64,000 nucleotides of DNA from Larsenimonas suaedae (GTDB lineage: Bacteria > Pseudomonadota > Gammaproteobacteria > Pseudomonadales > Halomonadaceae). The translations under genes and the position numbers were made by a program. The stretch spans positions 124,001 through 188,000 of the forward strand of contig NZ_JAMLJI010000004.1 in NCBI RefSeq assembly GCF_023712105.1. The letters are read 5' to 3'. Numbering within the stretch: the first letter of the stretch is position 1; each line of letters starts with the position of its first letter. Positions 29,618 to 52,105 of the stretch are shown piece after piece. A model generated the notes under the pieces. It saw only the letters and a list, made by a program, of their open reading frames with translations. It did not search any database and had not been told where the DNA came from.

Positions 29618-29696
29618 GGGGCGCTCCTCGCGTGGTGTGACGTGACATCAGAAAGACACATGACATCGTCAAGGCGTATTACATCGGAAAGACGTA

Positions 29697-31590: not shown

Positions 31591-31602
31591 CGTGCCTGCC
31601 GC

Positions 31603-32403
31603 CTAGTCGAACGTCAGCGAAACGCTGCCGAACGCCCCGTAATCGGCCTCGATCCGGCTGCCAGAGGGGCATTCCACCGGGCCAATGAACGAGCCCGACA
31701 GGATGACCTGGCCGGCTTCGATCCGCTGACCGTAGGTCGCCATGCGCCGCGCAAGCCACACAAGACCCGTGACCGGGTCGTCCAGTACGCCTGCGCCAAG
31801 CCCGGTGGCCACCACGTCGTCGTTGTGCTTGACGATCGAGCCGACCCAGCGCAGGTCGAGCGCGCTCGGGTCATGACGCTCGGTCCCCAGCACGATGCCG
31901 GCGTTGGCGGCGTTGTCGGAGACGGTGTCGAAGATCACACGAGTCTGGCCGGTCTCCTCGTCCTTTCGAACGATGCGGGTATCGAGAATCTCGATCGCCG
32001 GCGTCACGTACTCGGTCGCGGCCAGCACGTCCTCGCGGGTGACGTCACCCTCAAGCGGCGCCTTCATCACAAACGCGATCTCGGCCTCGATGCGGGGCTG
32101 AATGAAGTGGCCCTTTGGAATCACGGCGCCGGTGTCATAGCGCATGTAGTCATAGAGCACGCCGCTGTCGGGGGTGTCGATGCCGAGCGCGTCCTGCATG
32201 ACCTTCGAGGTCAGCCCGATTTTCCAGCCGAGAATGGCGTGATCCCGGGTCTTTCGTGTCATCTGAGCGGTCTGGATCGCGTAGGCATCATCAAGCGTCA
32301 TGCCCGGATAGCGCTTCGAGAGAAGACCGATCTGTTTTCTGGATGCTTCCGCCGCCAGCAGGTCGTCGGCGGCGGCCGCAATCTGCGCGTCAGTCAGTGC
32401 CAT
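31603..32403 (-). CDS. hpaH: 2-oxo-hept-4-ene-1,7-dioate hydratase
   Basis: A 266-residue hydratase of the fumarylacetoacetate hydrolase-related MhpD/HpaH family. It adds water to 2-oxohept-4-ene-1,7-dioate to make the HpaI substrate, with a divalent metal. Visible: RYPGMTLDDAYAIQ, GWKIGLTSKVMQ, PRIEAEIAFVM (metal Glu) and LVWLARRMA. ATG 32403 has GGAGGA six bases upstream and overlaps the hpaG stop by 14 bases, so the two are coupled. Confidence 0.95.
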   Translation of the reverse strand: MALTDAQIAAAADDLLAAEASRKQIGLLSKRYPGMTLDDAYAIQTAQMTRKTRDHAILGWKIGLTSKVMQDALGIDTPDSGVLYDYMRYDTGAVIPKGHFIQPRIEAEIAFVMKAPLEGDVTREDVLAATEYVTPAIEILDTRIVRKDEETGQTRVIFDTVSDNAANAGIVLGTERHDPSALDLRWVGSIVKHNDDVVATGLGAGVLDDPVTGLVWLARRMATYGQRIEAGQVILSGSFIGPVECPSGSRIEADYGAFGSVSLTFD

Positions 32404-33277
32404 GCTCGTCCTCCACGCCATTGGTCAGCGTGCCGATGCCGTCCGCCTCGATTTCGATCACATCGCCCGGCTTGAGCCAGATCGGCGGATCAAAGCGCGC
32501 ACCGGCGCCGGTCGGCGTGCCGCAGACAATCACGTCGCCCGGCACCAGGGTGGTGAAGGTCGAGACGTAATTCACGATGTAGCGGAAATCGAACATCATT
32601 CGCGAGGTGCGATCGTTCTGGCGAACCTCGCCGTTGACGCGGGTGGTCAGTTCGATGTCATCAAGCTGATCGGCACGCTTGAACGGTACAAGCCAGGGGC
32701 CGATGGCACCGGTGGCGTCGAAGTTCTTGCCTTGCGTGACGTTGAACTTGGCGTGGCGGACCCAGTCGCGAATGGTGCCTTCGTTGCAAAGCGTGAGTGC
32801 GGCGATGTGCTCGTAGGCCTTTTCGCGGGAAATCCGGCGGCCGCCCTTGCCGATCACGATGGTGACTTCGCCCTCATAGTCGAGCTGCTCACTTTCCGGC
32901 GGACGCACCAGGTTCTCGTTATGGCCGACAAAGCTTCTCGGGAAGCGGATGAACAGCGACGGCTTGCTCGGGGCGGCCTGGCCGTCCTTGTATTCCTCGT
33001 TGCGCGAGGGGAAGTTGACGCCGACGCAGATCAGCTTTTCCGGATTGGCGATCGGGATCAGGTAGGTGACGTCTTCCTCGCGGTAGCTCGGGCTGCGGCC
33101 TTCGGCAACGGTCAGAAGCTCGTCGATGGCGCCGGCCTCGATCACTTCCTTGAGCCCCTTGAAGCGGCTGCCGAATTCCGGCGTCAGATCGACGATGCCA
33201 TCGTCGGTCACGACCCCGAAACGGTCGGCGCCGTTGGCACGAAAGGACGCGAGACGAGGGGGAAGGGCGTTACTCAT
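32390..33277 (-). CDS. hpaG: HpaG-type fumarylacetoacetate hydrolase family isomerase/decarboxylase
   Basis: A 295-residue FAH-fold enzyme: KLICVGVNF, LDYEGEVTIVIGKGGR (metal Glu pair), TLCNEGTIRDW, GDVIVCGTPTGAG and KPGDVIEIE. In this context it should decarboxylate 5-oxo-pent-3-ene-1,2,5-tricarboxylate to the HpaH substrate. In E. coli HpaG is a fused two-domain protein; here there is a single FAH domain, so the isomerase step may be done by the same protein or spontaneously. AGGAG precedes ATG 33277. Confidence 0.88.
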   Translation of the reverse strand: MSNALPPRLASFRANGADRFGVVTDDGIVDLTPEFGSRFKGLKEVIEAGAIDELLTVAEGRSPSYREEDVTYLIPIANPEKLICVGVNFPSRNEEYKDGQAAPSKPSLFIRFPRSFVGHNENLVRPPESEQLDYEGEVTIVIGKGGRRISREKAYEHIAALTLCNEGTIRDWVRHAKFNVTQGKNFDATGAIGPWLVPFKRADQLDDIELTTRVNGEVRQNDRTSRMMFDFRYIVNYVSTFTTLVPGDVIVCGTPTGAGARFDPPIWLKPGDVIEIEADGIGTLTNGVEDEHGTD

Positions 33278-33367
33278 GGGCTATCTCCTGACGGCCCGAG
33301 CAGTCTCGGGCCCTTTGAATCATGGGTGCGACGTGTGTGACGGTCGGTTATACAACTGCCTTTTGGC

Positions 33368-34348
33368 TCAGGGCGCGACGATCGGCGTGGCGTTGAGCTG
33401 GGCGTCCCTGGGGTCGAGGTTTTCAAACTCGGAGCCGTGCTCGAACCAGGACCGCGGTGCCGCAGCGCCCCACAGCGTCTGGCGCTGCGGATCCTTCAGA
33501 TCCCACTTGATCGCTTCCAGATCCGGATCGACGGTCTGGTAGTCCGAGCAGTAGATCTCGATGCGGTGGCCGTCCGGGTCGAGAATATAGAGGAAGAAGG
33601 CGTTGGAAATGCCGTGACGGCCCGGGCCACGCTCGATGTTGTCAACGTAGCCGGTGGTGGCCATCAAATCGCACAGATCGATGATATTAAGCGGTGTTGG
33701 CACCCAGAAGGCGGTGTGGTGTAGGCGCGGGCCGCGGCCGTTGGTGAAGGCCATGTCGTGTACGCCGCCCTTGCGGTGGGTCCAGGCCGCCCACAGCTTG
33801 CCGCTTTCCTCGTCTTCGGTGTATTCGGTCACGCGGAAGCCGAGCTGGTTGTAGAACGCGACCGCCTCATCGACGTCCGGCGAGAACAGGTTGAAGTGGT
33901 CGATGCGCAGCGGCTTGACGCCCTTGTAGAGCGCGTACTGCTGATGAATCGGGGCCAGCCGGTCCATCTTGAAGTACAGCTCGATTGGCACGTCGAAGCA
34001 GTCGGTGGTGCGAAGCGTGCGGCCCTGATAGGGGCGTTCGACCCACTCGACCGGATGGCCGTTCTTTTTGAACCAGTCGTGGGCCTTGTCGAGCTCGCCC
34101 TCGTCGAACACCTTGAACGACAGTGATTTAATCGTCGCGCTGTCGCTTTTTTCCAGCACAAGGCAGTGGTGGCCGCGTTCTTCCATGGCCCGCAGATAGA
34201 TGCGGTTATCGTCTTCATCGGTGACCTGAAGGCCGAGCGTATCGACGTAGAAGTGACGGCTCTTGGCCAGGTCACTGACGCCAAACACCACGTGGCTCAG
34301 GCGAATGATGTTGAAGTCGGGGTAAAGATTGGGCGTTGGAATAGGCAT
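33368..34348 (-). CDS. hpaD: 3,4-dihydroxyphenylacetate 2,3-dioxygenase, VOC type (type I extradiol)
   Basis: A 326-residue two-domain vicinal-oxygen-chelate extradiol dioxygenase, resembling homoprotocatechuate 2,3-dioxygenase of Brevibacterium and Arthrobacter along its length (DLAKSRHFYVDTLGL, RGHHCLVL, ERGPGRHGISNAFFLY). The metal triad fits H151 (IDHFN), H211 (LHHTAF) and E264 (HRIEIY). It lies in the hpaF-hpaE unit, directly after hpaE, so homoprotocatechuate is the likely substrate. It is unrelated in fold to the LigB-type enzyme at 29697 that catalyses the same cleavage. ATG 34348 follows AGGAG; the longer frame to 34423 overlaps hpaE. Confidence 0.92.
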   Translation of the reverse strand: MPIPTPNLYPDFNIIRLSHVVFGVSDLAKSRHFYVDTLGLQVTDEDDNRIYLRAMEERGHHCLVLEKSDSATIKSLSFKVFDEGELDKAHDWFKKNGHPVEWVERPYQGRTLRTTDCFDVPIELYFKMDRLAPIHQQYALYKGVKPLRIDHFNLFSPDVDEAVAFYNQLGFRVTEYTEDEESGKLWAAWTHRKGGVHDMAFTNGRGPRLHHTAFWVPTPLNIIDLCDLMATTGYVDNIERGPGRHGISNAFFLYILDPDGHRIEIYCSDYQTVDPDLEAIKWDLKDPQRQTLWGAAAPRSWFEHGSEFENLDPRDAQLNATPIVAP

Positions 34349-34419
34349 GATGAGACTCCTGATGTTGGACAATAAATGTTCGTCAGGCAGGGCGGCGTAG
34401 GCCGCCCTGCGTGGTGACA

Positions 34420-35928
34420 TCACCCGAGCTTCGGCACCTTGTGGGCCTTGCGCGGGAAGGAGACGTTGACGGTCTCCATGTAGAAGTCGAACGACCAGTC
34501 ACCGCCGTCGCGGCCGATGCCGGACGATTTCACGCCGCCAAACGGCGACTCCAGGTGACGGACGTTTTCGGAGTTGACCCAGATCATGCCGGCTTCCAGC
34601 TCATCGGTCAGGCGCATGGCGCGGTCGAGGTCGTTGGTCCAGAGGTAGGCGGCAAGGCCGTACTGAGTGTCGTTGGCCAGGCGCAGCGCTTCCTCTTCAT
34701 CCTTGAACGAAATGGCGGTCAGTACCGGGCCGAAGATTTCTTCCTGGGCGACCGTCATGTCGTTGGTGGCGTTGGTAAAGAGCGTCGGGCGCACGAAGCA
34801 GCCTTCATCGCCGGCCTTCTCGCCGCCGGCGGCAATGGTGGCCCCTTCTTCACGGGCCTTGTCGAAGTACGACAGTACCTTCTCTTCGTGCTCGGGGTGA
34901 ATCAGCGGGCCGACGACGGTGTCGGGGTCGAGCGGATGGCCGACCTTTACGCCGTTGGCGACTTCCGCCACGCGGCGGGTGACTTCCTCGTAAATGCTTT
35001 CCTGCACCAAAAGGCGTGAGGAGGACGTGCAGCGCTCCCCGTTGAGCGAGTAGATCATGAAGGTAGCCGCGTTGACGGCGCGCTCGATGTCGGCGTCGTC
35101 GAACACGATGACCGGGTTCTTGCCGCCAAGCTCGAAGTGGAAGCGTTTAAGCGTCGGTGCGGCCTGCGCCATGATCAGCTGACCGGTGCGGCTTTCGCCG
35201 ACAAAGGCGACCGCCTTGATGCCGGGGTGTTCGGTCAGGGCCTTGCCTGCGTCTTCGCCCATGCCGTTGACCAGGTTGAGAACGCCTTTGGGGAGTCCGG
35301 CTTCCTCGGCGATTTCAACCAGGAGCTTGGCAGTCATCGGCGAGAACTCGGCCGGCTTGTGCACCACGGTGCAGCCAGAGGCCAGCGCCGGCGCGATTTT
35401 CCAGGTCGAGAGCATGAACGGCGTGTTCCACGGCGTAATGACGCCGATCGGCCCCAGCGGGCGCTTGGAGGTCACGTTCATCTGGGTGTCGTTTCGAAGG
35501 GACAGCCCGTCCTCGGCCTGCGGCGCCCGGTCGGCGAAGAAGCGGAAGTTGGCCGCCCCGCGCACTGCCGCCTTCGACATGAAGCGAAGCGACTGGCCGG
35601 TGTCCATGCACTCGGTAAAGGCGATTTCCTCGGCGCGGGCCTCGATGGCTTCCGCGACCTTGATCAGAATCTCGCGGCGTTCCTTGCCGGGCGTCTTGCT
35701 CCAGGTCTTGAACGCCTTTTCCGCAGCCTTCACGGCGCGGTCGATGTCACTGGCACCGCCGTGGGCGACGTCGGCAAGCGGGGCGAGATCGACCGGAGAG
35801 ATCGTTTCGAACGTCTTGCCGGAATCGGCAGGCACCGATTCGCCGTTGATGTGGTTCAAAACACCCTGTTCGCGAAAACGCTTCATGTAGTCCTGCGCGC
35901 GGGCGATGTTGTCGTTCAATTGGCTCAT
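34420..35928 (-). CDS. hpaE: 5-carboxymethyl-2-hydroxymuconic-semialdehyde dehydrogenase
   Basis: A 502-residue NAD-dependent aldehyde dehydrogenase of the HpaE type, oxidising the ring-cleavage product to the tricarboxylate acted on by HpaF. Visible: ITPWNTPFMLSTWKIAPAL, FVGESRTGQLIM, catalytic Glu in FELGGKNPVIVF, catalytic Cys in NGERCTSSSRLLV, and PFGGVKSSGIGRDGG near the end. GGAGG lies seven bases before ATG 35928. It follows hpaF by 28 bases and precedes the VOC dioxygenase in one leftward operon. Confidence 0.95.
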   Translation of the reverse strand: MSQLNDNIARAQDYMKRFREQGVLNHINGESVPADSGKTFETISPVDLAPLADVAHGGASDIDRAVKAAEKAFKTWSKTPGKERREILIKVAEAIEARAEEIAFTECMDTGQSLRFMSKAAVRGAANFRFFADRAPQAEDGLSLRNDTQMNVTSKRPLGPIGVITPWNTPFMLSTWKIAPALASGCTVVHKPAEFSPMTAKLLVEIAEEAGLPKGVLNLVNGMGEDAGKALTEHPGIKAVAFVGESRTGQLIMAQAAPTLKRFHFELGGKNPVIVFDDADIERAVNAATFMIYSLNGERCTSSSRLLVQESIYEEVTRRVAEVANGVKVGHPLDPDTVVGPLIHPEHEEKVLSYFDKAREEGATIAAGGEKAGDEGCFVRPTLFTNATNDMTVAQEEIFGPVLTAISFKDEEEALRLANDTQYGLAAYLWTNDLDRAMRLTDELEAGMIWVNSENVRHLESPFGGVKSSGIGRDGGDWSFDFYMETVNVSFPRKAHKVPKLG

Positions 35929-35956
35929 CAAGAATCCTCCAGAGGGGGCGTGGGGC

Positions 35957-36343
35957 TCACTGTTTGGACAGCCGGGTGTGGATCGGGGTGTCTTTCCAGC
36001 TCAGCGCGGCATCGATTTCGCGGATTTCAAGCGACAGGGCGAAATGTGGCGTTGAAAGCGGGGTGGCAAGTGCGCTCTGTACGGCCGCGAACAATTGCTC
36101 GCCGGCGGCCTTCAGGTCGTGCTCGGCGCGGCCGCTGCCCACGCTCAGGGTCATTGCCAGAAAGTCGTTGTCCGGGTGGTCGTCCGCCACGATGCAGTGA
36201 TCCGCGGCAAAGGCACGGACGCGAATGCCGGCCAGCGGAAAGAGATCGGACTCCGCCATCACCTGGTAGGCGGCGCGGCAGACCTCGCGTACATCGACGC
36301 GCTGTTCGAGACCGGGTGAGTATTCGATATGCAAATGAGGCAC
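35957..36343 (-). CDS. hpaF: 5-carboxymethyl-2-hydroxymuconate delta-isomerase
   Basis: A 128-residue tautomerase-superfamily enzyme that moves the double bond of 5-carboxymethyl-2-hydroxymuconate before decarboxylation. The family needs an N-terminal proline as catalytic base, exposed when fMet is removed. The codon GTG at 36343 is followed directly by Pro (PHLHIEYSPGLE) and preceded by AAGGAG, so GTG 36343 is the start, not the ATG at 36376. First gene of the leftward hpaF-hpaE-dioxygenase-hpaG-hpaH unit; the operator palindrome at 36399-36412 lies just upstream. Confidence 0.93.
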   Translation of the reverse strand: MPHLHIEYSPGLEQRVDVREVCRAAYQVMAESDLFPLAGIRVRAFAADHCIVADDHPDNDFLAMTLSVGSGRAEHDLKAAGEQLFAAVQSALATPLSTPHFALSLEIREIDAALSWKDTPIHTRLSKQ

Positions 36344-36757
36344 GTCGTTCTCCTTGAAAGCCTGCGGTGTGTGCAAACGACCAGGTCAGACTTGAATCGT
36401 TAACATATTAACAATGATCCGTCGGTTTCCTGTCAAGCGTCTGCGCCTAATCATTTCGATGTATACGATGTGGGTTCAGACAGGGCGGCTTCAATTGCGC
36501 CCAACAGCCGATATAGACGGTCAGCGCCCCGGATCGTTCACAGATTAACGAGTTCGTTAGGCGCTTGGATGACATGCCGACCAAGGTAGGGGGTGTATTT
36601 ATGAAAAGTACAATCGAGTCCGCGTAAAACACATCCTCATCGACCCTGGCGGTCTTCAGCATGGAAGGGGTCAGGGCTTTCGAGCGTGCCTTGCGAGGCA
36701 ATCACCGCGTGTGTCATGCGTCCAGCCGGAGCCGAGTCGATCACTGAGGAGAAGACC
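36344..36757. other. divergent control region between hpaF and the flavin monooxygenase
   Basis: 414 bases with no gene I can support. It contains the palindrome at 36399-36412, and is more AT-rich than the flanking genes. It must hold promoters for the leftward hpa operon and the rightward oxygenase gene. Confidence 0.7.
36399..36412. promoter_or_regulatory. pathway palindrome A (hpaF side)
   Basis: Perfect inverted repeat GTTAA-CATA-TTAAC, 56 bases upstream of hpaF. One of five (G/A)TTA(A/T)-N4-TTAA(C/T) sites in the aromatic region; a MarR-type operator, possibly for HpaR. Confidence 0.7.
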
Positions 36758-38638
36758 ATGCAATTTCACCATCACGGTTATGTATCGGGTGACCCCCGCG
36801 TTCAACCCGCGCTCGGCGAGGGGCTCGAGCGAAGCGATGCGCTGCCTGATGAGGTAGACGTATTGATCGTTGGCACCGGGCCTGCCGGCATGATCATGGC
36901 CGCGCAGCTGGCGCAGTTCCCCCACATTCGCACCCGCATCATCGAGCGCCGTGCCGGCCGGCTCGAGATCGGCCACGCCGACGGCATTCAGGCGCGAAGC
37001 GTCGAGACCTTTCAGGCCTTCGGCTTTGCCGGTCGCATCACCGCCGAGGCGTATCGCATCACCGAAATGGCGTTCTGGAAGCCGGACCCGGATCAGCCCG
37101 AGCACATCATTCGCACCGCCCGTACGCTTGATGACCCGGAAGGCATCAGCGAATTTCCTCACCTGATCGTTAACCAGGCCCGCGTGCTCGACTATCTGGC
37201 TGAATCCGCCGCCAATGGTCCGGCGCGTATCCGCCCGGACTTCGGCATCGAGTTCAAGGGGCTTGAGGTCGACGGGGAGGGTGACTACCCCGTAAGCGTC
37301 GCGCTCAAGCACGTTGCCGGCCCGGATGAGGGTCGTGAGCGTACGGTGCGGGCCAAGTACGTGGTCGGCTGTGATGGCGCGCGAAGCGGTGTGCGTAGCG
37401 CCATCGGCTGCACTCTTGCCGGAGACCAGGCCAACCACGCCTGGGGCGTGATGGACGTGCTGGCGCGCACCGATTTTCCCGACATCCGCACCAAATGTGC
37501 CATCCAGTCGCATTCCGGGGGCAGCATCCTGTTGATTCCGCGCGAGGGCGGGCATCTGTTTCGCATGTACGTCGATCTCGGCGAGGTGCCGGCCGATGGC
37601 GGAAGCGCCGTGCGCAATACGCCGATCGAGCAGATCATCGCCAAGGCCAATGACATTCTCACGCCCTACACCCTCGACGTTAAAGACGTGGCCTGGCACA
37701 GCGTCTACGAGGTTGGTCATCGGCTGACCGACCGCTTCGACGACGTTAAAAACCCCGATTCAGGGCGTCTGCCGCGGGTCTTCATTACGGGTGATGCCTG
37801 CCACACCCACAGCGCCAAGGCCGGTCAGGGCATGAACGTCTCGATGCAGGACGGGTTCAACCTGGGTTGGAAGCTCGGCTACGTGCTCTCGAACCGAAGC
37901 CCGGCGAGTCTGCTCTCGACCTATTCCGCCGAGCGTCAGGTGGTGGCCAAGAATCTGATCGATTTCGACAAGCAGTGGTCGACGATGATGGCCAAGCGCC
38001 CGGAAGAGTTCGAAAACCCGGGAGAACTGGAAGAGTTCTACACCCGCACCATCGAGTTTCCGGCCGGCTTCATGACCGAGTATGAGCCGTCACTGATCAC
38101 CAACGACGCCGATCATCAGGCGCTGGCGACCGGCTTTCCCATCGGCAAGCGCTTCAAGTCGGCGATGGTCTCACGCGTGTGCGATGGCAACCCGTTGCAG
38201 CTTGGGCATCAGGCCAAGGCCGATGGCCGGTGGCGCCTTTACGTGTTTGCCGACGCCGCCACCCCCGAGGCGGACTCGAAGACCCGAAGCCTTGCCGAAT
38301 GGCTGGCGCATTCAAGCGACTCGCCGCTCAATGCCTCGTTCCCCAATGGCAGTTCATGGATCGATTGGTTCGACATCAAGGTGATCTATCAGCAGCGCCA
38401 TGAGGACATCGCCATTCAGGAGGTGCCGAGCGTGTTCACGCCCGAGGTGGGGCCATTCGAGCTGATTGATCTCGAAAACGTGTTCGGCGTGGCCCCGGGT
38501 GACGATATTTTCGACGCCCGTGGCATCGACCGTGACGGCGCAGTAGTGGTGGTGCGCCCCGATCAGTACGTGGCCGATGTGCTGCCACTCTCCCACGCCG
38601 ACCGCCTCTCCGAGCTGTTCCTGCGGCTTCAGGCGTAA
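36758..38638 (+). CDS. FAD-dependent aromatic hydroxylase (phenol 2-monooxygenase / 3-hydroxybenzoate 4-monooxygenase family)
   Basis: A 626-residue single-component flavoprotein hydroxylase that inserts one oxygen next to a phenol hydroxyl using NAD(P)H. Visible: FAD motif GTGPAG (about 39-44), DGARSGVRSAIG (about 206), GDACHTHSAKAGQGMN (about 344), and the C-terminal thioredoxin-like domain of the phenol hydroxylase family. Length matches MobA/phenol 2-monooxygenase (about 640). GAGGAG precedes ATG 36758. It is divergent from the hpa operon and no HpaBC is present, so ortho-hydroxylation of a hydroxyphenylacetate to homoprotocatechuate is a strong guess; the substrate is not proven by sequence. 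Confidence 0.88.
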   Translation: MQFHHHGYVSGDPRVQPALGEGLERSDALPDEVDVLIVGTGPAGMIMAAQLAQFPHIRTRIIERRAGRLEIGHADGIQARSVETFQAFGFAGRITAEAYRITEMAFWKPDPDQPEHIIRTARTLDDPEGISEFPHLIVNQARVLDYLAESAANGPARIRPDFGIEFKGLEVDGEGDYPVSVALKHVAGPDEGRERTVRAKYVVGCDGARSGVRSAIGCTLAGDQANHAWGVMDVLARTDFPDIRTKCAIQSHSGGSILLIPREGGHLFRMYVDLGEVPADGGSAVRNTPIEQIIAKANDILTPYTLDVKDVAWHSVYEVGHRLTDRFDDVKNPDSGRLPRVFITGDACHTHSAKAGQGMNVSMQDGFNLGWKLGYVLSNRSPASLLSTYSAERQVVAKNLIDFDKQWSTMMAKRPEEFENPGELEEFYTRTIEFPAGFMTEYEPSLITNDADHQALATGFPIGKRFKSAMVSRVCDGNPLQLGHQAKADGRWRLYVFADAATPEADSKTRSLAEWLAHSSDSPLNASFPNGSSWIDWFDIKVIYQQRHEDIAIQEVPSVFTPEVGPFELIDLENVFGVAPGDDIFDARGIDRDGAVVVVRPDQYVADVLPLSHADRLSELFLRLQA

Positions 38639-38923: not shown

Positions 38924-41900
38924 ATGACTACGCCGCTGACAGCTCGCCCCGCCCCCGTGGCAGATTGGGTCGATATCAAGACGCTTTATGACGATCCGTA
39001 CCCGATCTACGAGCGCCTTCGTCGTGAGGGCGGTGTGCACTGGGTGCCAAGCGTCAATCGCTATCTGATCACAAGCTACGAGGCCGTGATTGCCACCGAG
39101 CATGATCAGGAAACGTTTTCGGCCAATGAAACGGACTCGCTGCAGATTCGGGCCATGGGGCATTCGATGCTGCGCCGTGACGATCCCGAGCACTACCGCG
39201 AGCGCCGACAGTGGCAGAGCGTGTTCAAGCCAAACGCTGTCAAAAACGTCTGGACGCAGACCTTTCACGAAAAGGGCCGTGAGCAGCTGGCCCGCTTGAT
39301 CGACAAGGGGCCGGGGGCGGATCTGATCTGGGATTTTTCGGCGCCCTTCGCGGCGGAGTGCCTCAAATCACTGCTCGGGCTTTATAACGCCTCGGCCGAG
39401 GATCTGCAGCGCTGGTCGCAGACCCTGATCGACGCCACCGGCAACTACGCCGATGACCCCGACGTGTGGGCCGCCGGCAAGCGCTCGTTCGATGAGGTCG
39501 ATGTGGCACTTGATGAGATGCTCGAGTGGCACCTCCATAACCGTGATCACTCGCTGCTGTCGTCGCTGTTGTCCTCACCCGAAGAGCAGATGCCGATTGA
39601 AAAGATTCGCGCCAACATCAAGATGAGCATCGGCGGCGGGCTGAACGAGCCGCGTGATGCCCTTGGTGTGGCGGCGTGGGCGATGCTGACTCACCCAGAC
39701 CAGCGCAAGGCGGTAGAGCGCGACCCGGCGCTCTGGTCGACGGTGTTCGATGAGACCATTCGCTGGATTGCCCCCATCGGGCTTTATTCGCGTCAGACCA
39801 CCAAAAGGACCGTGCTGGCCGGGGTCGAGCTGCCCGCGGGCGCACGTCTTGGCATCTGTATTCTCTCGGCCAACCGCGATGAGTCGATCTGGGACCGTGC
39901 AGATGAGTTCGACATTCACCGCGAGGTGAAACCGCATCTGGCGTTCAGCAAGGGCACGCATGTGTGTCTCGGCGCGCGGGCGGCGCGGGCCGAAGTGGCC
40001 GATGTAGCGCTTCCGCTGCTGTTTGGTCATCTAAACGGGCTGTCGATCGATCCTGATAACGCCCCAGCCGTCGGGGGCTGGGTGTTTCGCGGCATGCTGT
40101 CGCTGCCGGCGACCTGGCATGACGTCAAGCCGCTCGACGCGGGGCCGGTCTCCGTTGCGGTCGGGGGCGTCACGCCCTCGCAGACGGAAACCGAGGCGTG
40201 CCCGCACGTGGCCATTGTCGGCTCTGGGCCGGCGGGCTGTTTCACTGCCAGGGAGCTTTCGCGGCGTCTGCCCGGTGCCCGTATTGATCTGATCGACCGG
40301 CTGCCGGTGCCCTATGGGCTGCTTCGCTACGGTGTCGCTGGCGATCACCAGGGCACCAAGGCGGTGGCACGCCAGTTTGACCGTTTGTTCGATTCCCCCA
40401 ACGTGCGCTTTGTCGGTAACACCACCATCGGCGATCAGGTCGCCTTTGAGGATCTGCGCGCCGGCTACGATGCGGTGGTGCTGGCAAGTGGGGTGCACGC
40501 CGACCGGGCGCTCGGTATTCCGGGCGAGACGCTTACCGGGGTCTGGGGCGCGGGCGGCATCACCCGAAGGCTCAACGGCCACCCGAATGAAACCGAGACC
40601 CCGACCCTAGGTCGGCGTGTGGCGATTGTCGGGCAGGGCAATGTGGCCATCGACGTGCTGCGGCTGCTGTCGGTTCGGTCAAAAGACCTCGAGGGCAGCG
40701 ATATTGACGAGGCCGTGCACGGGGCGCTGACGCGCGACATCGATACGCTTCACATCATCGGGCGCTCGAGCGCCGAAAAGGCGCGCTTCGACCCGGTCAT
40801 GATTCGCGAACTGGGCCGCTTCTCGGGCATTCGCCACTGCGTGCATGGCGTCGAGCTTGACCGCGTGCCGGAAGGCAAGGATGCCCGATTGGACGCCTTG
40901 CGCACGCTGCCGGGCGTCGCGGGTGTCGAGGTCGACGGTACCGTGCGCATGAAAGTTGACTGGTGGTTCGAGACGGTGCCCGAGCAGATCGACGGGCAGG
41001 CGAAGGTCGAAGGCGTGGCGCTGCGTCACGGCGGCGACGTCGTCTCGCTTGAGGTGGACTCGGTCGTTACCGCCATCGGTTTTGTGCCCGACCCGGAAAA
41101 TGCCATTTCCAGGGCACTGGCTGAGCTTCCGAGCGCGTCCGAGAGTGGGCGTATCGAAGCCGGGCTGTATCTGGCCGGTTGGCTGCGCCGCAGCGCCCGC
41201 GGCACGATCCCTGACCAGCGCACCGATGCCCGGGCGCTGGCCGGGGTGATCGGCGCCGACATCGCCTCCGGCGACATTGCCTGTACGCGACAAGGGCTTG
41301 CGCCGCATGTGGAGGCCACCGACATCGATGGCTGGCGGCGGATCGATCAGCGCGAGCGCAGCGACGCCACGCCCGACCGCGTACGCACCAAGCTGTGCAC
41401 GTTCGAGGCGCTTTTAAGCTCGGCGCGGGACACCTCGATCGTCATCGATCGGGCGACCGACGGGGCGGCCGGTGAGGGCGACAGTCTGGGGGATCTCTCG
41501 GTCAGCATTCTATTTGGCACCGAATCCGGCAACGCCGAGCTTGTCGCCGAGGAGCTCGAGCAGGCGCTTGAAGGCCGCTGCACGGTGGACATCGCCGATC
41601 TGGGAGACATTGAGCCGGACGATCTTGCCCCCGAGCGGTTTTACCTCATCATCTGTTCGACCTACGGCGACGGCGACGTGCCGGGCGGGGCGAATGCGTT
41701 CTATCAGGCGCTGCGTGAGCGCGCACCGGACCTTGAAGGCATTCGCTTTGCAAGTTTTGGGCTTGGCGACAGCAGCTACGCCAAGACCTACTCCCGGGGC
41801 AGTGAGCTGCTTACCGAGGCGTTGACTGCCTGCGGTGCAAGGCGCATCGGTGAGTACGGCCGCCATGATGCCAGCGGGTCGCTGTCGGCGTCCGATGTGG

Positions 41901-41962
41901 CGCTTGATTGGGCCGAGGGCGTGTTGGTTCTGGCGGCGAGCGAGTCTTCGACGCCCGCGTAA
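38924..41962 (+). CDS. self-contained cytochrome P450: P450 - adrenodoxin reductase-like - flavodoxin fusion
   Basis: One 1012-residue chain with three redox domains. P450 (about 1-400): ExxR at E277-R280, heme Cys348 in FSKGTHVCLG, and an I-helix reading GGGLNEPRD without the usual acid-Thr pair. This, and the FRGMLSLPATW end, recall the GcoA (CYP255A) aromatic O-demethylases. Then a ferredoxin/adrenodoxin reductase-like FAD and NADPH module (about 425-790; GSGPAG, GQGNVAIDVLRLL, IGFVPD). Last, a flavodoxin (about 858-1010; FGTESGNAE, STYGDGDVPGG, FGLGDSSY). Electrons should pass NADPH-FAD-FMN-heme. The frame is uninterrupted. Hydroxylation of phenylacetate or O-demethylation of homovanillate would feed the hpa pathway; both are inferences. 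Confidence 0.9.
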   Translation: MTTPLTARPAPVADWVDIKTLYDDPYPIYERLRREGGVHWVPSVNRYLITSYEAVIATEHDQETFSANETDSLQIRAMGHSMLRRDDPEHYRERRQWQSVFKPNAVKNVWTQTFHEKGREQLARLIDKGPGADLIWDFSAPFAAECLKSLLGLYNASAEDLQRWSQTLIDATGNYADDPDVWAAGKRSFDEVDVALDEMLEWHLHNRDHSLLSSLLSSPEEQMPIEKIRANIKMSIGGGLNEPRDALGVAAWAMLTHPDQRKAVERDPALWSTVFDETIRWIAPIGLYSRQTTKRTVLAGVELPAGARLGICILSANRDESIWDRADEFDIHREVKPHLAFSKGTHVCLGARAARAEVADVALPLLFGHLNGLSIDPDNAPAVGGWVFRGMLSLPATWHDVKPLDAGPVSVAVGGVTPSQTETEACPHVAIVGSGPAGCFTARELSRRLPGARIDLIDRLPVPYGLLRYGVAGDHQGTKAVARQFDRLFDSPNVRFVGNTTIGDQVAFEDLRAGYDAVVLASGVHADRALGIPGETLTGVWGAGGITRRLNGHPNETETPTLGRRVAIVGQGNVAIDVLRLLSVRSKDLEGSDIDEAVHGALTRDIDTLHIIGRSSAEKARFDPVMIRELGRFSGIRHCVHGVELDRVPEGKDARLDALRTLPGVAGVEVDGTVRMKVDWWFETVPEQIDGQAKVEGVALRHGGDVVSLEVDSVVTAIGFVPDPENAISRALAELPSASESGRIEAGLYLAGWLRRSARGTIPDQRTDARALAGVIGADIASGDIACTRQGLAPHVEATDIDGWRRIDQRERSDATPDRVRTKLCTFEALLSSARDTSIVIDRATDGAAGEGDSLGDLSVSILFGTESGNAELVAEELEQALEGRCTVDIADLGDIEPDDLAPERFYLIICSTYGDGDVPGGANAFYQALRERAPDLEGIRFASFGLGDSSYAKTYSRGSELLTEALTACGARRIGEYGRHDASGSLSASDVALDWAEGVLVLAASESSTPA

Positions 41963-42062: not shown

Positions 42063-43136
42063 ATGACACCACGTATGACCCGCGGCGCGCTCAAGCACTG
42101 CCAGCGTGTGCTGCTGCTCGGGGTCGGCCTGGCCCTCGGGGCGGCAAGCCCGTCGGCGTCGGCCGTGACCACGCTTCGCATCACGCACTTTCTGCCCGCG
42201 GTTGCAAGCGTGCAGCGTCAGGTGCTCGACCCCTGGTGCGATGAGCTTGAAGCGCGTTCAGGTCACGAGATTCGCTGCCAGATCTACCCCTCGATGCAGC
42301 TCGGGGGGATTCCCTCTCAACTGCCCGACATGGTGCGAAACGGCGTGGTGGACATCGCCTGGACGGCGCTTGGCTACTCCGCCGGGCGCTTTCCTCGAAG
42401 CGAGGCGCTGGAGCTTCCGTTCATGCTGCCCGCCGGCGGCGACGAGGGCAGCCGAATCGCCTGGGCCTTTACCCAGGGGCCGGCGCGCAAGGATTTCGCC
42501 GACTACCACGTACTGGCCGTGCACAGCGACGGCGGTGCGGTTTTCCATTCACGCGATACGCTCATTTACGACGCTGCCGACATGGCCGGGCTGAAGCTTC
42601 GCGCGCCGACCCGAATGGCGTCTCGAATGATCGATGCGCTTGGTGCCTCGGCGGTCAGCATGCCGCCGGCCCAGATTGCCGACACCCTCGCCAAGGGCGT
42701 GATCAACGGCGCCTCGGCCGGGTGGGAGGTGGTGCCGCCGACCAAGCTCGATGAAGTCACCCGCTATCACACCGAACCGGCCGCGCATCAGGCAACCCCC
42801 ACCGTGACCGTACTGGCGTTTCTGATGAACAAGCAAAGCTATGAGCGCCTGCCCGACAAGGCCCGAGCGGCGCTGGACGCACTCAGCGGCGAGGGGCTCT
42901 CGCGTCGGTTCGGCAAGGCCTGGGACGATGCCATCGTCCGTGTGCGTGCCAAGGTCAAAAACGACCCCGACCAGACTGTCATCACCCTTGATGATGCGGC
43001 CTATAACGGCATGCGTGACGCCTCGCGCTCGGTGACCGAGGACTGGATGGCCTCACGCGAGGGCGGGGTCGACCGGGCGGCACTGGTGCGCGCACTTGAA
43101 GCGCTCGTCGAACAAAAAGAGCCGGCGCTTGAGTGA
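42063..43136 (+). CDS. TRAP transporter solute-binding protein (DctP family)
   Basis: A 357-residue periplasmic receptor with a Sec signal peptide (hydrophobic core VLLLGVGLALGAAS, cleavage near SASA-VTT). DctP features: LRITHFLP start of the mature protein, QIYPSMQLGG, DMAGLKLRAPTRM with the ligand-binding Arg, and a C-terminal helical strap. It captures an organic acid for the membrane pair encoded next. Flanked by aromatic-pathway palindromes and oxygenases, so a (hydroxy)phenylacetate is the likely ligand. Confidence 0.9.
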   Translation: MTPRMTRGALKHCQRVLLLGVGLALGAASPSASAVTTLRITHFLPAVASVQRQVLDPWCDELEARSGHEIRCQIYPSMQLGGIPSQLPDMVRNGVVDIAWTALGYSAGRFPRSEALELPFMLPAGGDEGSRIAWAFTQGPARKDFADYHVLAVHSDGGAVFHSRDTLIYDAADMAGLKLRAPTRMASRMIDALGASAVSMPPAQIADTLAKGVINGASAGWEVVPPTKLDEVTRYHTEPAAHQATPTVTVLAFLMNKQSYERLPDKARAALDALSGEGLSRRFGKAWDDAIVRVRAKVKNDPDQTVITLDDAAYNGMRDASRSVTEDWMASREGGVDRAALVRALEALVEQKEPALE

Positions 43137-43170
43137 CGCCGCGCGGCTGGCCCGGCCGGCAGGGCTTAAA

Positions 43171-43210
43171 TGAGATGAAGCGCTTTCGGATGAGATGAAG
43201 CGCTTTCGGG
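43171..43210 (+). repeat. 20-base tandem duplication before dctQ
   Basis: TGAGATGAAGCGCTTTCGGA occurs twice head to tail (43171-43190, 43191-43210; 19 of 20 identical). Each copy contains an ATG; the second one opens the dctQ frame at 43195, which leaves two possible starts. Confidence 0.85.
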
Positions 43211-43218
43211 AGACAGAC

Positions 43219-43725
43219 ATGATCAAACCGTTACTCACGCGCCTCGCGGCCGGACTTGCGCTGGTGGGCGGGCTACTGCTGCTCGGCGCCATTGCGCTTT
43301 CGCTGACCTCGATGGTCGGGCGCAGGCTCTGGGCTGCTCCCATCACCGGCGACATGGAGCTTTTGCAAATGACGATGGCGGTGGCGGTGGCCTGCTTTTT
43401 GCCGCTGTGTGAAATCAACGACCGCCACATTCGGGTGGATATCGTCGCAACGGTATTGCCGGCCGGCGTCAATCGCGCGCTGCTGGTGATCTCGCATTTG
43501 ATGCTGGCCTGCGTCAGTGCGCTGCTTTTGTGGCGTACGGCGCTGATGACGCAGGACAGTTTTCTTTTTAACGCGCAAAGCGTGCAGCTTGGCCTGCCCG
43601 AAGGGGCCTTTCAGGTTGCGATGCTGCCGGGGCTTACCCTGATGAGCGTGTGTGCGCTGTATCAGAGCGTGCATCACTTGATCCGCGAGGACGCGCCAGC
43701 GCTGATCGAGGAGGAGGGCCTTTAA
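43219..43725 (+). CDS. TRAP transporter small permease (DctQ family)
   Basis: A 168-residue membrane protein with four hydrophobic helices, as usual for DctQ (MIKPLLTRLAAGLALVGG, MELLQMTMAVAVACFLPL, RHIRVDIV motif after TM2). It supports the large permease in sodium-driven uptake. ATG 43219 follows GGGAG; an earlier ATG at 43195 lies in the duplicated leader. The stop overlaps the large-permease start (TAATG), showing translational coupling. Confidence 0.88.
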   Translation: MIKPLLTRLAAGLALVGGLLLLGAIALSLTSMVGRRLWAAPITGDMELLQMTMAVAVACFLPLCEINDRHIRVDIVATVLPAGVNRALLVISHLMLACVSALLLWRTALMTQDSFLFNAQSVQLGLPEGAFQVAMLPGLTLMSVCALYQSVHHLIREDAPALIEEEGL

Positions 43726-45038
43726 TGGAAGGACTGACGATGGGCGCGGTGGCGCTTGGCGTGATGCTGTTGCTGCTTGGCTGCCGCCTGCATGTGGGGG
43801 TAGGGATGCTGCTGGCCGGCGCCCTGTGTTATCTGCTGGTCTACGGCGATGTTCACGCGCTGCTCTATACCCTTAACAATCTGGTCTACGCGCGGTTCTC
43901 AAGCTATGACCTGGCAGTGATCCCGATTTTTGTGTTGATGGGTCAGTTCGCGATTCACGGTGGACTCTCGGCGACGCTCTTTCAGGCCAGTGCCAAGTGG
44001 ATCGGCCACTGGCGGGGCGGGCTTGCGATGTCGGCGGCCGGGGCCTGTGCGGGTTTCGGTGCCATCTGCGGCTCCTCGCTTGCCACCGCCACCACCATGA
44101 GTCAGGTGGCGCTGCCGGAGCTTGAGCGTCACCGCTACACCAAGCGGCTGGCCACCGGCACCATCGCCGCCGCAGGCACGCTTGGCATCCTGATTCCGCC
44201 ATCGGTGCCGCTGATCGTCTACGCCGTGCTGACCCACACCTCGATCGCGACGCTGTTCATGGCGGCGGTGCTGCCGGGGCTGGTGGCGGTGGTGGGCTAC
44301 TTCGCGGTGATTCGGCTGATGGCGGTGCGCTCGATGACGGATGTCGAGGCATCACCCCGCTACTCGTGGGCCGAGCGGCTGGCGAGTCTTCGGGACATCG
44401 CGCCGGTGCTGGTGATCTTCATCGTGGTGATCTTCGGGCTGTATGGCGGCTGGGCGAACCTGACCGAGGCGGCCTCGCTCGGGGCGGCGGCCTGTGGCGT
44501 TTATGCCCTGTGGCGCGGCATGCGCTGGGCCGGGCTTTACAAGAGCCTGGTGGGCACCGCAGAGGCGAGCGCGATGATCTATCTGGTGGTGATCGGGGCC
44601 GATCTCCTGAACAGTGGGCTGGCGCTCGGCCAACTGCCGGCGGCGCTGGCCGAGTGGGTGCTTGGCAGCGGCCTTGCCCCGCTTGCAGTGCTTTTGGTGA
44701 TTCTCGCGATCTATCTGGTGCTTGGCTGCATGATGGATTCGCTGTCGATGATTCTGCTGACCATTCCGATCTTCTTCCCGATCATCATGCAGCTCGATCT
44801 TTTCGGCCTGACCGGGCCGGAAAAGGCGATCTGGTTCGGAATCGTTGCGCTGATGGTGGTGGAAATCGGGCTGATTACGCCGCCAATGGGGATGAATCTG
44901 TTCATCGTGCAGAAGTACAGCCACAACACCTCACTTGGCACGGTCAGTCGCGGCATCGTGCCGTTTCTGGGCGCGGACATGGTGCGCATCGCGGTGGTGG
45001 TGTTCGTGCCGGCGCTCTCGCTGGTGTGGCTCGGTTAG
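43725..45038 (+). CDS. TRAP transporter large permease (DctM family)
   Basis: A 437-residue transporter with about 12 hydrophobic segments; DctM features include FVLMGQFAIHGG, GAICGSSLATATTMSQVALPE and the PPMGMNLFIVQ motif near the end. It moves the substrate with sodium across the inner membrane. The start at 43725 shares one base with the dctQ stop. Last gene of the TRAP operon; a terminator follows. Confidence 0.92.
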   Translation: MEGLTMGAVALGVMLLLLGCRLHVGVGMLLAGALCYLLVYGDVHALLYTLNNLVYARFSSYDLAVIPIFVLMGQFAIHGGLSATLFQASAKWIGHWRGGLAMSAAGACAGFGAICGSSLATATTMSQVALPELERHRYTKRLATGTIAAAGTLGILIPPSVPLIVYAVLTHTSIATLFMAAVLPGLVAVVGYFAVIRLMAVRSMTDVEASPRYSWAERLASLRDIAPVLVIFIVVIFGLYGGWANLTEAASLGAAACGVYALWRGMRWAGLYKSLVGTAEASAMIYLVVIGADLLNSGLALGQLPAALAEWVLGSGLAPLAVLLVILAIYLVLGCMMDSLSMILLTIPIFFPIIMQLDLFGLTGPEKAIWFGIVALMVVEIGLITPPMGMNLFIVQKYSHNTSLGTVSRGIVPFLGADMVRIAVVVFVPALSLVWLG

Positions 45039-45346: not shown

Positions 45347-46690
45347 ATGACTACGACACGCTACCGCCCCGTGCTGCCGACGCTCGCCGCCAGCACGATC
45401 ATCACGCTGACGCTCTGTGGCAATGCCTCGGCGCTCGAGCTTTATGACAACGCAAAGACCAAGATCAACCTGAACGTCACCGGGGTGGCGGGGGCGTTTC
45501 ACAGTCAGAAAGGGTATGCCCAGTCGGAGACGGCCGAGGCGGGCGGCCGGGACTGGCAGGAAGGCTTCATCAAGTACGGCCTTGATGCCACCCATACGCT
45601 GTCCCCCACGGCGGGTTCGCTCTACGCCAATGTGGCCTGGACCTCGAGCGGCACATGGGGCCAGGGCGACGCGGCAGGATTCACGACCGGCGATGAGCGG
45701 CGAACGCATCTTGAGGACCTCGCCGTTGGCTGGAAATCCGGCGAGCTGATTCCAGCGCTTGGCACCGACGGGCTCGATGTGTCGGTGGGTCGTCAATACA
45801 TTCAGGTCGGCGACGGGTTCTTGATTTCAGGCGACTCGCTCAATTTCGGCGAGGGGGTGCTTGGCGGTGATCTGGACCGTGGCGGAGCCTACTATCTTGC
45901 CGCGCGGCAGTCCTTTGAGAAGACCGCCGTGGTGAGACTCGGCGGCGATACGGGCTGGCGGGGCGATCTGATGTGGCTCAAATCCGGTAACCGGGCGCAG
46001 GCCAAACCCGAGATGGCGGTGGGCACGCTCGAGCACGTGACCGATGACGCAACGCTCGGGGCGACCTACATCAAGGTGCTCGATACCGACCGCGATTTCG
46101 CGTTTCTCTACCCGGACCGGGAAGACACCAGGGTCTATAGCGTCTACGGCCACGGCAATGCCGGGGTCGAGAACCTGTTTTTGGCCGGTCAGTTCGCCTG
46201 GCAGGAAAAAGGCAACGGTGCCGATGAAAACGCCTGGTACGCGGAAGCCGGCTGGACGTTCAGTGATCTGGCCTGGTCGCCCTACGTGAGCTACCGCTTC
46301 AGCCGGTTCTCCGACGGCTATGACCCGCTGTTCTACGGCAACGGCCGTGCGCTCGGCACCTGGTTCCAGGGCGAGGTGGCGGCGAACTACGCAGGCCCCT
46401 TCGCCACCAACGCCCGCATTCATCAGGTCACGTTGTCACTCACGCCTGCCGATAATCTAGGTCTTGGCTTGCTGGCGTACCGCTTCGATACCCTCGATAC
46501 CAATCAGGGGCCGAACCTTGATGGTAACGAGATCGACCTCTATGGCACCTGGACGATCAACGACCATTGGTGGGTGATGCCGCTCGTTGGCCGTTACGAC
46601 CCGGACTCCCCCGCCTCACGCGGCGGGTCACAGCTTGGCGGCAGTGGCTCGAACTACTACACCCAGCTGTTGGTCGGGTTTAATTTCTGA
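45347..46690 (+). CDS. outer membrane porin (alginate-export/OprD-like beta-barrel)
   Basis: A 447-residue protein with a signal peptide (ASTIITLTLCGNASA-LEL) and alternating beta-strand sequence ending in Phe (VGFNF), as needed for Bam-dependent insertion. Motifs GRQYIQVGDGFLISGD and DLYGTWTINDHWWVMPLVGRY resemble alginate-export-type porins often linked to aromatic or sugar-acid uptake. It probably lets aromatic acids into the periplasm for the TRAP receptor encoded upstream. AAGGG precedes ATG 45347. Confidence 0.83.
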   Translation: MTTTRYRPVLPTLAASTIITLTLCGNASALELYDNAKTKINLNVTGVAGAFHSQKGYAQSETAEAGGRDWQEGFIKYGLDATHTLSPTAGSLYANVAWTSSGTWGQGDAAGFTTGDERRTHLEDLAVGWKSGELIPALGTDGLDVSVGRQYIQVGDGFLISGDSLNFGEGVLGGDLDRGGAYYLAARQSFEKTAVVRLGGDTGWRGDLMWLKSGNRAQAKPEMAVGTLEHVTDDATLGATYIKVLDTDRDFAFLYPDREDTRVYSVYGHGNAGVENLFLAGQFAWQEKGNGADENAWYAEAGWTFSDLAWSPYVSYRFSRFSDGYDPLFYGNGRALGTWFQGEVAANYAGPFATNARIHQVTLSLTPADNLGLGLLAYRFDTLDTNQGPNLDGNEIDLYGTWTINDHWWVMPLVGRYDPDSPASRGGSQLGGSGSNYYTQLLVGFNF

Positions 46691-46920
46691 TCGGGCAAGG
46701 CACGCGCCCTAAGGGACAAACCTCGGCAGACAGCGTCATGCACCCGGCAGCCACTGGCAAGTCGTCGGGTGCGTGGCGCATTAGCCTAACGATATACAGC
46801 TCTTTTCAACACAGAACCGCTGTTTGACGTCGAGTTTCTCACGCGTTGCTGGTGGCACCCGGTACTGGGTGGCCCTTGAATGGCGCACCGCTCGATGCTC
46901 AATCGCGCAGGAGATCGCTC

Positions 46921-48405
46921 ATGAGTCAGGACACTGCATCACAGGCCGTACAGGACTTCTTAACGCGGGCGACGGGCTCGTTCATCGATGGCGCCTTTTT
47001 GAGTGAAGGCAACGCCCGCGATGTGCTGGACCCCTCGACCGGCAAGCCGCTGACCCAGGTGGCCGAAGGCGACGCCGCGCTTGCAGACCGCGCAGTTGCC
47101 TTGACCAAGGAAAGCTTCGAGGACGGCCGCTGGAGCAGCATGACCCCGGCGGCGCGTGAGCGCATTCTGCTGCGTTTTGCCGATCTTCTGGAGGCGAACG
47201 CCGACGAACTCGCCCAGATCGAAACCCTCAACCAGGGCAAGTCGATCAACATCGCCCGTGGCGTCGATGTCGGCTTCTCGATCGATTTCATCCGCTACAT
47301 GGCCGGGTGGACCACCAAGCTCGAGGGCAGCACCCGCGAAGTGTCCATCGGCATGCCGGAAGGCGCGAAGTTCAACGTTTATACCCTGCGTCAGCCCATT
47401 GGCGTCGTGGCGGCCATCGTTCCGTGGAACTTCCCGATGATGATTGCGCTCTGGAAGCTGGTGCCGGCACTGGCGGCAGGCTGCACGGTCGTGCTCAAGC
47501 CCGCCTCCGAGACGCCCTTGAGCGTTCTGCGCCTGGCTGAACTCGCAATCGAGGCCGGTGTGCCGAAGGGCGTGTTCAACGTGGTGCTGGGTTCCGGGTC
47601 AACGGTCGGCACGCGTCTGTCCGAGCATCCGGACGTCAAGAAGGTCACGTTCACCGGCAGCACCGAAATCGGCAAGCAGATCGGTCATGCGGCGGTCGAG
47701 CACATGGCGCACTTCTCGCTGGAACTGGGTGGCAAGAACCCGATGCTGGTGCTTGAAGACGCCGACGTCGAAAAGGCGGTCAACGGTGCGCTGATGGGCG
47801 GGCTGATCAATCAGGGGCAGGTCTGTGCGGCCGCGTCGCGCTTTTATGTGCATCGAAGCATTCATGACGCCTTCTGCGAGCAGCTCGCCAAGGCCGTCGA
47901 TTCCATGCACGCAGGCCCCGGCATCGATCCCGACGCGCAGGTCAATCCGCTGGTGTCCAAGCGTCAGCAGGACAGCGTTCAGGGCTACATCGACCGCGCG
48001 CGCGATCAGGGCGCCAAGGTGCATGTCGGCAACAAGGTACCAACTGAGGGCTTCTACGTGTCGCCCACCGTGGTCAGTGGTGCGACCCATGACATGGAAA
48101 TCGCGCGGGAAGAGGTGTTTGGCCCGGTGTTGACCGTGATTGCCTTCGACGACGAGGAAGACGCGCTTAAAATGGTCAATGACAGCGACCTGGGCCTGGC
48201 TGCGAGCCTCTGGACCGAGAGCCTATCCAAGGCGATGGCGATGACACCACGCATCGAGGCCGGCACCGTCTGGGTCAACACCCACGTGACGCTTGACCCG
48301 GCCATGCCGTTTGGCGGCCTCAAGATGTCGGGCATTGGCAAGGAATTCGGCCCGGAAGCGGTCAACGCCTACACCGAACTCAAATCAATCTGCATCGCGT
48401 ACTGA
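46921..48405 (+). CDS. feaB: phenylacetaldehyde dehydrogenase (FeaB-like)
   Basis: A 494-residue NAD-dependent aldehyde dehydrogenase resembling E. coli FeaB, notably NQGQVCAAASRFYVH around the catalytic Cys; also VPWNFPMMIALWKL, FTGSTEIGKQIG, LELGGKNPMLVLED and PFGGLKMSGIGKEFG. It should oxidise phenyl-, 4-hydroxyphenyl- or 3,4-dihydroxyphenylacetaldehyde from amine oxidation to the matching acid. AGGAG nine bases before ATG 46921 sets the start. A FeaR-like regulator follows convergently and an amine-oxidase operon lies 2.3 kb beyond. Confidence 0.88.
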   Translation: MSQDTASQAVQDFLTRATGSFIDGAFLSEGNARDVLDPSTGKPLTQVAEGDAALADRAVALTKESFEDGRWSSMTPAARERILLRFADLLEANADELAQIETLNQGKSINIARGVDVGFSIDFIRYMAGWTTKLEGSTREVSIGMPEGAKFNVYTLRQPIGVVAAIVPWNFPMMIALWKLVPALAAGCTVVLKPASETPLSVLRLAELAIEAGVPKGVFNVVLGSGSTVGTRLSEHPDVKKVTFTGSTEIGKQIGHAAVEHMAHFSLELGGKNPMLVLEDADVEKAVNGALMGGLINQGQVCAAASRFYVHRSIHDAFCEQLAKAVDSMHAGPGIDPDAQVNPLVSKRQQDSVQGYIDRARDQGAKVHVGNKVPTEGFYVSPTVVSGATHDMEIAREEVFGPVLTVIAFDDEEDALKMVNDSDLGLAASLWTESLSKAMAMTPRIEAGTVWVNTHVTLDPAMPFGGLKMSGIGKEFGPEAVNAYTELKSICIAY

Positions 48406-52012: not shown

Positions 52013-52105
52013 GAACGCGTCCTGATCGGTCGGTGACCCAACGCAGTACGACCGGACAGGCCGGTCGTACTGCGTTGACTCGAAGTTAAGGGGGCAAACG
52101 CTGCC

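Follow-up and report, generated by a model that had tools for sequence, protein, structure and literature searches.

We analyzed a 64,000-nucleotide stretch of the Larsenimonas suaedae genome (hereafter, the window) and focused on a gene whose product unites a cytochrome P450 with two flavin domains in a single chain. The gene occupies positions 38924-41962 of the forward strand, where one open reading frame (ORF) runs from ATG over 1012 amino acids (aa) with no internal stop and with guanine-cytosine (GC) contents of 0.69/0.49/0.77 at the three codon positions. The original prediction had described this frame as a P450 followed by an adrenodoxin-reductase/FprA-like module for flavin adenine dinucleotide (FAD) and a C-terminal flavodoxin. 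Pfam returned p450, Pyr_redox_2 and Flavodoxin_1 in the claimed order, all three above the curated cut-offs. The domains and the surrounding features are listed in Table 1.

The closest PDB relatives agree with this order. The reductase module matches bovine adrenodoxin reductase (1cjc) and FprA (1lqt), and the flavodoxin domain matches 4oxx first, then MioC, PA3435 and the flavin mononucleotide (FMN) domains of sulfite and P450 reductases. For the P450 domain the first match is 6g71 (E 3e-154; 59% identity over gap-free aligned columns), followed by 8u09, 9ia1 and GcoA chains. The I-helix GGGLNEPRD is the same in 6g71 and the heme loop is similar, but the 405-aa chain of 6g71 is a P450 alone, whose redox partners presumably act in trans. 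We take 6g71 to be CYP1232A24 of Arthrobacter, from the papaverine/homovanillate pathway. Members of a P450 family share at least 40% amino-acid identity with another member, and the fusion P450, at 59% to 6g71, would fall in CYP1232 if 6g71 belongs to that family.

The motifs of all three domains are shared by the nine fusions that we found in the family Halomonadaceae (see below). In the P450 these are ExxR (residues 277-280), the I-helix GGGLNEP and the predicted heme thiolate Cys348 (39965-39967), which sits within AFSKGTHVCLGAR, identical in all nine orthologs. In the reductase they are the FAD motif GxGxxG, the motif GxGNVAxDV for reduced nicotinamide adenine dinucleotide or its phosphate (NAD(P)H) and the C-terminal GW. 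All three FMN loops are present in the flavodoxin, where the P-loop is invariant across the nine and the other two show small changes. The equivalent I-helix columns hold Asn241-Glu242 in the fusion, N-E in 6g71 and Q-E in 8u09, so the earlier statement that the acid-Thr pair is missing, as in GcoA, was right; on the GGL register of P450cam, Asn241-Glu242 presumably occupy the usual Asp-Thr positions. The two-Arg site for the 2'-phosphate of NADPH, GRRG in adrenodoxin reductase and FprA, reads GRS in all nine fusions. GRS is also found in 11 of 14 unfused adrenodoxin-reductase-like proteins paired with a flavodoxin (L055, L056, L057, L086, L104, L105, L106, L113, L115, L117 and L118; the motif scan returned another motif or none for L085, L114 and L116) and may mark the choice of nicotinamide or of acceptor in such proteins.

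Table 1. Features of the fusion gene and its surroundings, in window coordinates.
Feature	Position	Strand	Basis
Homoprotocatechuate meta-cleavage operon: SSADH, HpaI, LigB-type HpaD, HpaH, HpaG, HpaD, HpaE, HpaF	27280..36376	-	NCBIfam, Pfam
FAD aromatic hydroxylase, MobA/phenol-hydroxylase type, upstream of the fusion	36686..38638	+	PRK08294 above cut-off; best PDB match 2dkh (3-hydroxybenzoate hydroxylase), E 5e-198
Probable ribosome-binding site	38915-38919	+	GGAGG, 4 nucleotides 5' of the ATG
P450 heme domain, residues 1-399	38924..40120	+	PF00067; identity to 6g71 at 231/391 aligned residues
Linker 1, residues 400-424, of varying length and sequence	40121..40195	+	Ortholog comparison
Adrenodoxin-reductase/FprA-type FAD-NAD(P)H module, residues 425-838	40196..41437	+	PF07992; 1cjc, 1lqt
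Linker 2, residues 839-856, variable	41438..41491	+	Ortholog comparison
FMN flavodoxin domain, cindoxin/MioC-like, residues 857-1005	41492..41938	+	PF00258, E 6e-22; cindoxin 4oxx, E 2e-27
TRAP transporter DctP, DctQ, DctM	42063..45038	+	Pfam
Possible outer-membrane porin	45347..46690	+	Translation judged by eye; no Pfam match
Aldehyde dehydrogenase	46846..48405	+	Best NCBIfam match phenylacetaldehyde dehydrogenase StyD, under its cut-off
FeaR-type regulator (aromatic amine catabolism)	48647..49585	-	NCBIfam FeaR, 313 bits (cut-off 199)
DAO oxidase, RidA-like protein and 'tyramine oxidase subunit B' (trio)	50723..53748	-	Profile matches

Conservation and genomic setting in Halomonadaceae

An unbroken, single-frame fusion is present in 9 of 275 Halomonadaceae genomes, that of L. 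suaedae included. The other eight proteins are 80-94% identical to the window protein, and their carriers include Larsenimonas salina, Kushneria pakistanensis, Terasakiispira papahanaumokuakeensis and two Halomonas. All nine proteins measure 1007-1012 aa (ortholog start codons were set by script), and a scan of contigs with exact peptide patterns, which pick up close relatives, found five loci, every one a full fusion. Compared with the window protein, the eight orthologs are 87-92% identical in the P450 and 77-97% in the reductase and flavodoxin, while linker 1 falls to 20-68% and linker 2 to 28-94%. Median pairwise ratios of nonsynonymous to synonymous substitution rates (dN/dS) are 0.075 for the P450, 0.143 for the reductase and 0.149 for the flavodoxin (36 pairs each). 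For linkers 1 and 2 they are 0.47 and 0.53, calculated from 29 and 34 of the 36 pairs after removal of those without a positive dS (7 and 2, respectively). The three domains are under purifying selection, the two linkers are loose, and the fusion is a maintained fused protein. Divergence between the window and L. salina (L004) is uneven along the gene, with 5-16 differences per 90 bases in the P450 half up to codon 360, 25-32 at codons 361-450 and only 0-8 in the reductase-flavodoxin half, which suggests recombination within the fused gene.

The fusion lies divergent to an operon for meta-cleavage of homoprotocatechuate (hpa), in which SSADH, HpaI, HpaD_Fe, HpaD and HpaE pass their NCBIfam cut-offs, HpaH and HpaG stay under theirs, and HpaF is called from the Pfam domain CHMI. 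The FAD hydroxylase between the two is probably a hydroxyphenylacetate hydroxylase, and the TRAP transporter may possibly take up aromatic acids. The DAO oxidase trio lies at most 20 kb from the fusion in the window as well as in the eight other carriers. A FAD oxidoreductase and a Rid protein also adjoin a reductase-flavodoxin pair in Sinorhizobium (L117).

Across the 275 genomes hpaD (E 1e-80) was found in 14, namely eight of the nine with the fusion and six of the 266 without it, one of the six (G225) having an hpaD that is only 44% identical. The ninth carrier, G191, has a LigB-type hpaD and hpaE. We fetched the clusters of five of the six fusion-less genomes, leaving out G225. All five hold the FAD hydroxylase together with hpa genes, and P450, reductase and flavodoxin domains were found in none of the five stretches (E 1e-5); the five differ in their transporter, dehydrogenase and trio genes. 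In G129, of the same genus, the hydroxylase match stops at 4294 and the dctP match starts at 4590 of the fetched stretch (L120), which is the place that the fusion takes in the window. Because these clusters retain hpa genes as well as the hydroxylase, the fusion reads as an accessory entry step: the core hpa pathway can apparently do without the fusion, which seems to add an entry reaction.

Unfused relatives and known P450 systems

Outside Halomonadaceae the fusion was not found in 369 genomes of the class, 293 of the order and 398 of the phylum, with the top two candidates scored per genome. These samples overlap, contain some Halomonadaceae, list matches to E 1e-40 or 1e-60 and are without actinobacterial whole genomes (Arthrobacter among them). 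One of these samples gave four P450 matches in open frames of 502-669 aa, too short for three domains; G1200 alone was inspected. No fusion was found in 72,556 plasmid records, where only four places cover at least 80% of the query and consist of separate genes or of a reductase beside a flavodoxin-P450. None of 50,697 phage records covers 80% of the query. Five frames of 1275-1513 aa around reductase matches in other families were suspected P450 fusions. By eye, the four inspected (all but G718) hold ferredoxin, adrenodoxin-reductase-like and molybdopterin oxidoreductase parts and no P450. Such a natural fusion, with the ferredoxin N-terminal and the molybdopterin oxidoreductase C-terminal, is read by eye in L107-L110 (open frames of 1275-1513 aa).

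The same protein types in the same gene order, but unfused, were seen at three inspected loci, namely two Rhodococcus plasmid operons (R. pyridinivorans pA and R. opacus G13, the latter a record without annotation) and the Halomonadaceae genome G003. Identity of these operons to the fusion is 23-26% for the P450, 42-43% for the reductase and 39-44% for the flavodoxin. P450 relatives at 42-47% (four inspected of 170 matched plasmid records) adjoin genes for a 2Fe-2S ferredoxin and a FAD-dependent oxidoreductase, so the fusion joins a CYP1232-type P450 to a redox pair of another kind. Given the shared gene order of the unfused operons, the fusion looks like a collapsed operon, and we infer that it arose from a same-order operon carrying a CYP1232-type P450. 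In a midpoint-rooted tree of reductase plus flavodoxin (23 taxa), the fusion is nearest to pairs labelled as Rieske-associated (support 71) and then to the P450 operon of G003 (support 85). The label applies to five pairs; in three of them a Rieske subunit is annotated within the stretch retrieved, and two (L057, L105) were labelled from their similar gene order. A support of 71 is too weak for the donor of the redox pair to be named.

Four of the closest reductase-plus-flavodoxin pairs (reductase 43-45%) lie on alphaproteobacterial plasmids (L056 7995-9685, L057 5989-7703, L086 7992-9673 and L118 8989-10630). In the stretches of L056, L086 and L118 a subunit of a Rieske ring-hydroxylating oxygenase is annotated but no P450, a hint that in these plasmid clusters a flavodoxin may drive a Rieske oxygenase.

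Among known systems, XplA/XplB combines, like the fusion, an adrenodoxin-reductase-like FAD protein, a flavodoxin and a P450, and the partner of XplA is termed adrenodoxin-reductase-like (PMC10820124). The redox chain is therefore already known, in two proteins. XplA-type systems (class VI) differ in having the flavodoxin fused to the N-terminal side of the P450 and a free-standing reductase; in the fusion the flavodoxin is C-terminal and the reductase fused. The Gordonia KTR9 pair, which we take to be XplB/XplA, is 42% (reductase) and 40% (flavodoxin) identical to the fusion, and the P450 part of the R. erythropolis R138 pair is only 26% identical. An Enterobacter plasmid cassette has the same three protein types in the order reductase-flavodoxin-P450. 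P450cin and cindoxin (class III) resemble the fusion in that cindoxin 4oxx is the closest PDB relative of its flavodoxin domain, but they are separate proteins. Class III has a separate FAD reductase and flavodoxin, whereas here all lie in one ORF; the redox chain is otherwise of the class III kind.

Self-contained P450s with the P450 N-terminal are known from P450-BM3 (class VIII) and CYP116B/P450RhF (class VII). BM3 places FMN between the heme and an FNR-type FAD domain; in the fusion no FNR-type Pfam domain was reported, and the flavodoxin comes last. Class VII, in the portion of a 2024 review available to us (PMC11173547), carries a C-terminal FMN/NADH and 2Fe-2S reductase, and no 2Fe-2S Pfam domain was reported in the fusion. 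GcoAB is an aromatic O-demethylase, as the fusion probably is, with a related heme domain, but consists of two proteins; its description gives GcoB as a reductase of 2Fe-2S plus FNR type and proposes the system as a new P450 class (PMC6021390). The artificial F2 fusion CYP11A1-ADXR-ADX shares the domain order, with adrenodoxin reductase in the middle, but is engineered and uses as carrier adrenodoxin, an iron-sulfur protein, in place of a flavodoxin (PMC7504070).

The same portion of the 2024 review divides P450s into ten classes, of which class V is fused to ferredoxin, class VI to flavodoxin, class VII to an FMN/NADH/2Fe-2S reductase and class VIII to a P450-reductase module; none there is P450-adrenodoxin reductase-flavodoxin (PMC11173547). 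The architecture was not met in the literature searched, which was covered by titles and the starts of abstracts with most subscription papers outside, and its absence from print is weakly shown. The original prediction had called the arrangement new. This stands for the single-chain order, which was met only in Halomonadaceae among the genome samples, plasmids and phages, and falls for the redox chain, which is known from XplB/XplA and the unfused same-order operons. As far as searched, then, the chemistry and the redox chain are known and the single-chain order is undescribed.

On balance we lean towards a natural single-chain P450 of new topology, with the FAD module between heme and FMN, that derives from an operon-to-fusion event and would stand as a separate class among self-sufficient P450s. 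In this reading it is a methoxyphenylacetate O-demethylase, gained and lost as a single cassette by Halomonadaceae hpa clusters. P450s that need no separate partner are valued as catalysts, and only a few classes of fusion have been described. If this reading is true, the protein would be a ready-made O-demethylase for methoxyphenylacetates of the lignin and catecholamine type. With this domain order, electron transfer from an FMN carrier at the far end of the chain becomes open to experiment, and the unfused same-order operons and the clusters without the gene provide natural before/after comparisons.

Predicted reaction and alternative readings

We consider it probable that this one polypeptide is a self-contained aromatic O-demethylase in which electrons run from NAD(P)H through FAD and FMN to the heme, turning homovanillate into 3,4-dihydroxyphenylacetate and formaldehyde. 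In the genome the fusion is the sole P450 match. The path, the donor, the substrate, the products and the binding of three cofactors are all predicted as follows. NAD(P)H would reduce the FAD of the central module, which would pass single electrons to the FMN of the C-terminal flavodoxin; the reduced flavodoxin would dock on the N-terminal P450 and reduce the heme. With the FAD module between heme and FMN in the chain, the last domain would therefore have to fold back onto the first, or serve the other chain of a dimer. After O2 activation, the P450 would hydroxylate the methoxy carbon of a methoxylated phenylacetate, homovanillate being the best candidate, and the hydroxylated intermediate would collapse to 3,4-dihydroxyphenylacetate and formaldehyde. 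The ring of 3,4-dihydroxyphenylacetate would then be opened by the adjoining hpa operon. CYP1232A24 is reported to O-demethylate homovanillate and 3,4-dimethoxyphenylacetate (Klenk et al., J Biochem 2019). Of the substrates first put forward, homovanillate is favored, and phenylacetate and 3-/4-hydroxyphenylacetate less so, because the neighboring FAD hydroxylase probably serves hydroxyphenylacetates.

Several points weigh against this assignment. An identity of 59% to 6g71 leaves the substrate unfixed, and the name and activity attached to 6g71 are presumed. The change of the second Arg to Ser in the NADPH 2'-phosphate motif makes the nicotinamide donor uncertain, so that use of NADH is possible. 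Besides the fusion, the flavodoxin finds one further match in the genome (37%, residues 860-999) and the reductase a partial one (33%, residues 425-584), which makes partners in trans possible too. The association between fusion and hpaD has a Fisher value of 3.6e-11, a figure that ignores shared ancestry and physical linkage, and in G219 some 600 kb separate hpaD from the fusion, which there lies beside the DAO trio.

An unlikely alternative keeps the architecture and redox path and changes the reaction to ring hydroxylation of phenylacetate or hydroxyphenylacetate, with the fusion feeding the hpa operon in place of HpaB. HpaB (PF03241) has no match in the L. suaedae genome, which leaves the formation of 3,4-dihydroxyphenylacetate to some different enzyme, and a self-sufficient P450, of CYP116B type, is reported to work in 2-hydroxyphenylacetate catabolism (PMC8449657). 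However, the FAD hydroxylase present in all five fetched fusion-less clusters, whose best PDB match is a 3-hydroxybenzoate hydroxylase, could carry out the ring hydroxylation. Furthermore, the P450 is closest to 6g71, then 8u09, 9ia1 and GcoA chains, of which the GcoA chains are aromatic O-demethylases by record name and 6g71 and 8u09 presumably so.

Less probable still is that the reductase and flavodoxin act mainly across chains, in a dimer or with separate partners, or that the P450 is largely driven by H2O2 with the appended domains secondary. BM3 does pass electrons between the chains of its dimer, the linkers of the fusion are short and variable, and the genome offers the further flavodoxin-like gene described above. 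The amide-acid pair of the I-helix is shared with 8u09, which we take to be SyoA, a P450 with peroxygenase activity. On the other hand, the reductase and flavodoxin are under clear purifying selection with their cofactor motifs complete in all nine fusions, and the genome gave no other full-length match to the reductase. Finally, that the ORF is an assembly join or a chance read-through of separate genes, one outcome that would have undone the original prediction, can be dismissed with near certainty: same-order operons do exist unfused, but the unbroken frame recurs in nine of 275 genomes, its own included, with linkers that stay in frame though their lengths vary.

Other observations along the window

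The hpa operon contains two unrelated types of 3,4-dihydroxyphenylacetate 2,3-dioxygenase, a LigB-type HpaD_Fe (29697-30719) and a glyoxalase-type HpaD (33368-34423). A lower-GC stretch at 54007-58519 contains genes for a NO VEIN C-terminal domain protein and a DUF3800 protein, together with an ORF of 857 aa that has no match in Pfam. At 2115-11669, four long ORFs (1137, 538, 439 and 1071 aa) overlap at their ends in an operon-like manner, the first part of this stretch being lower in GC than the rest of the window.

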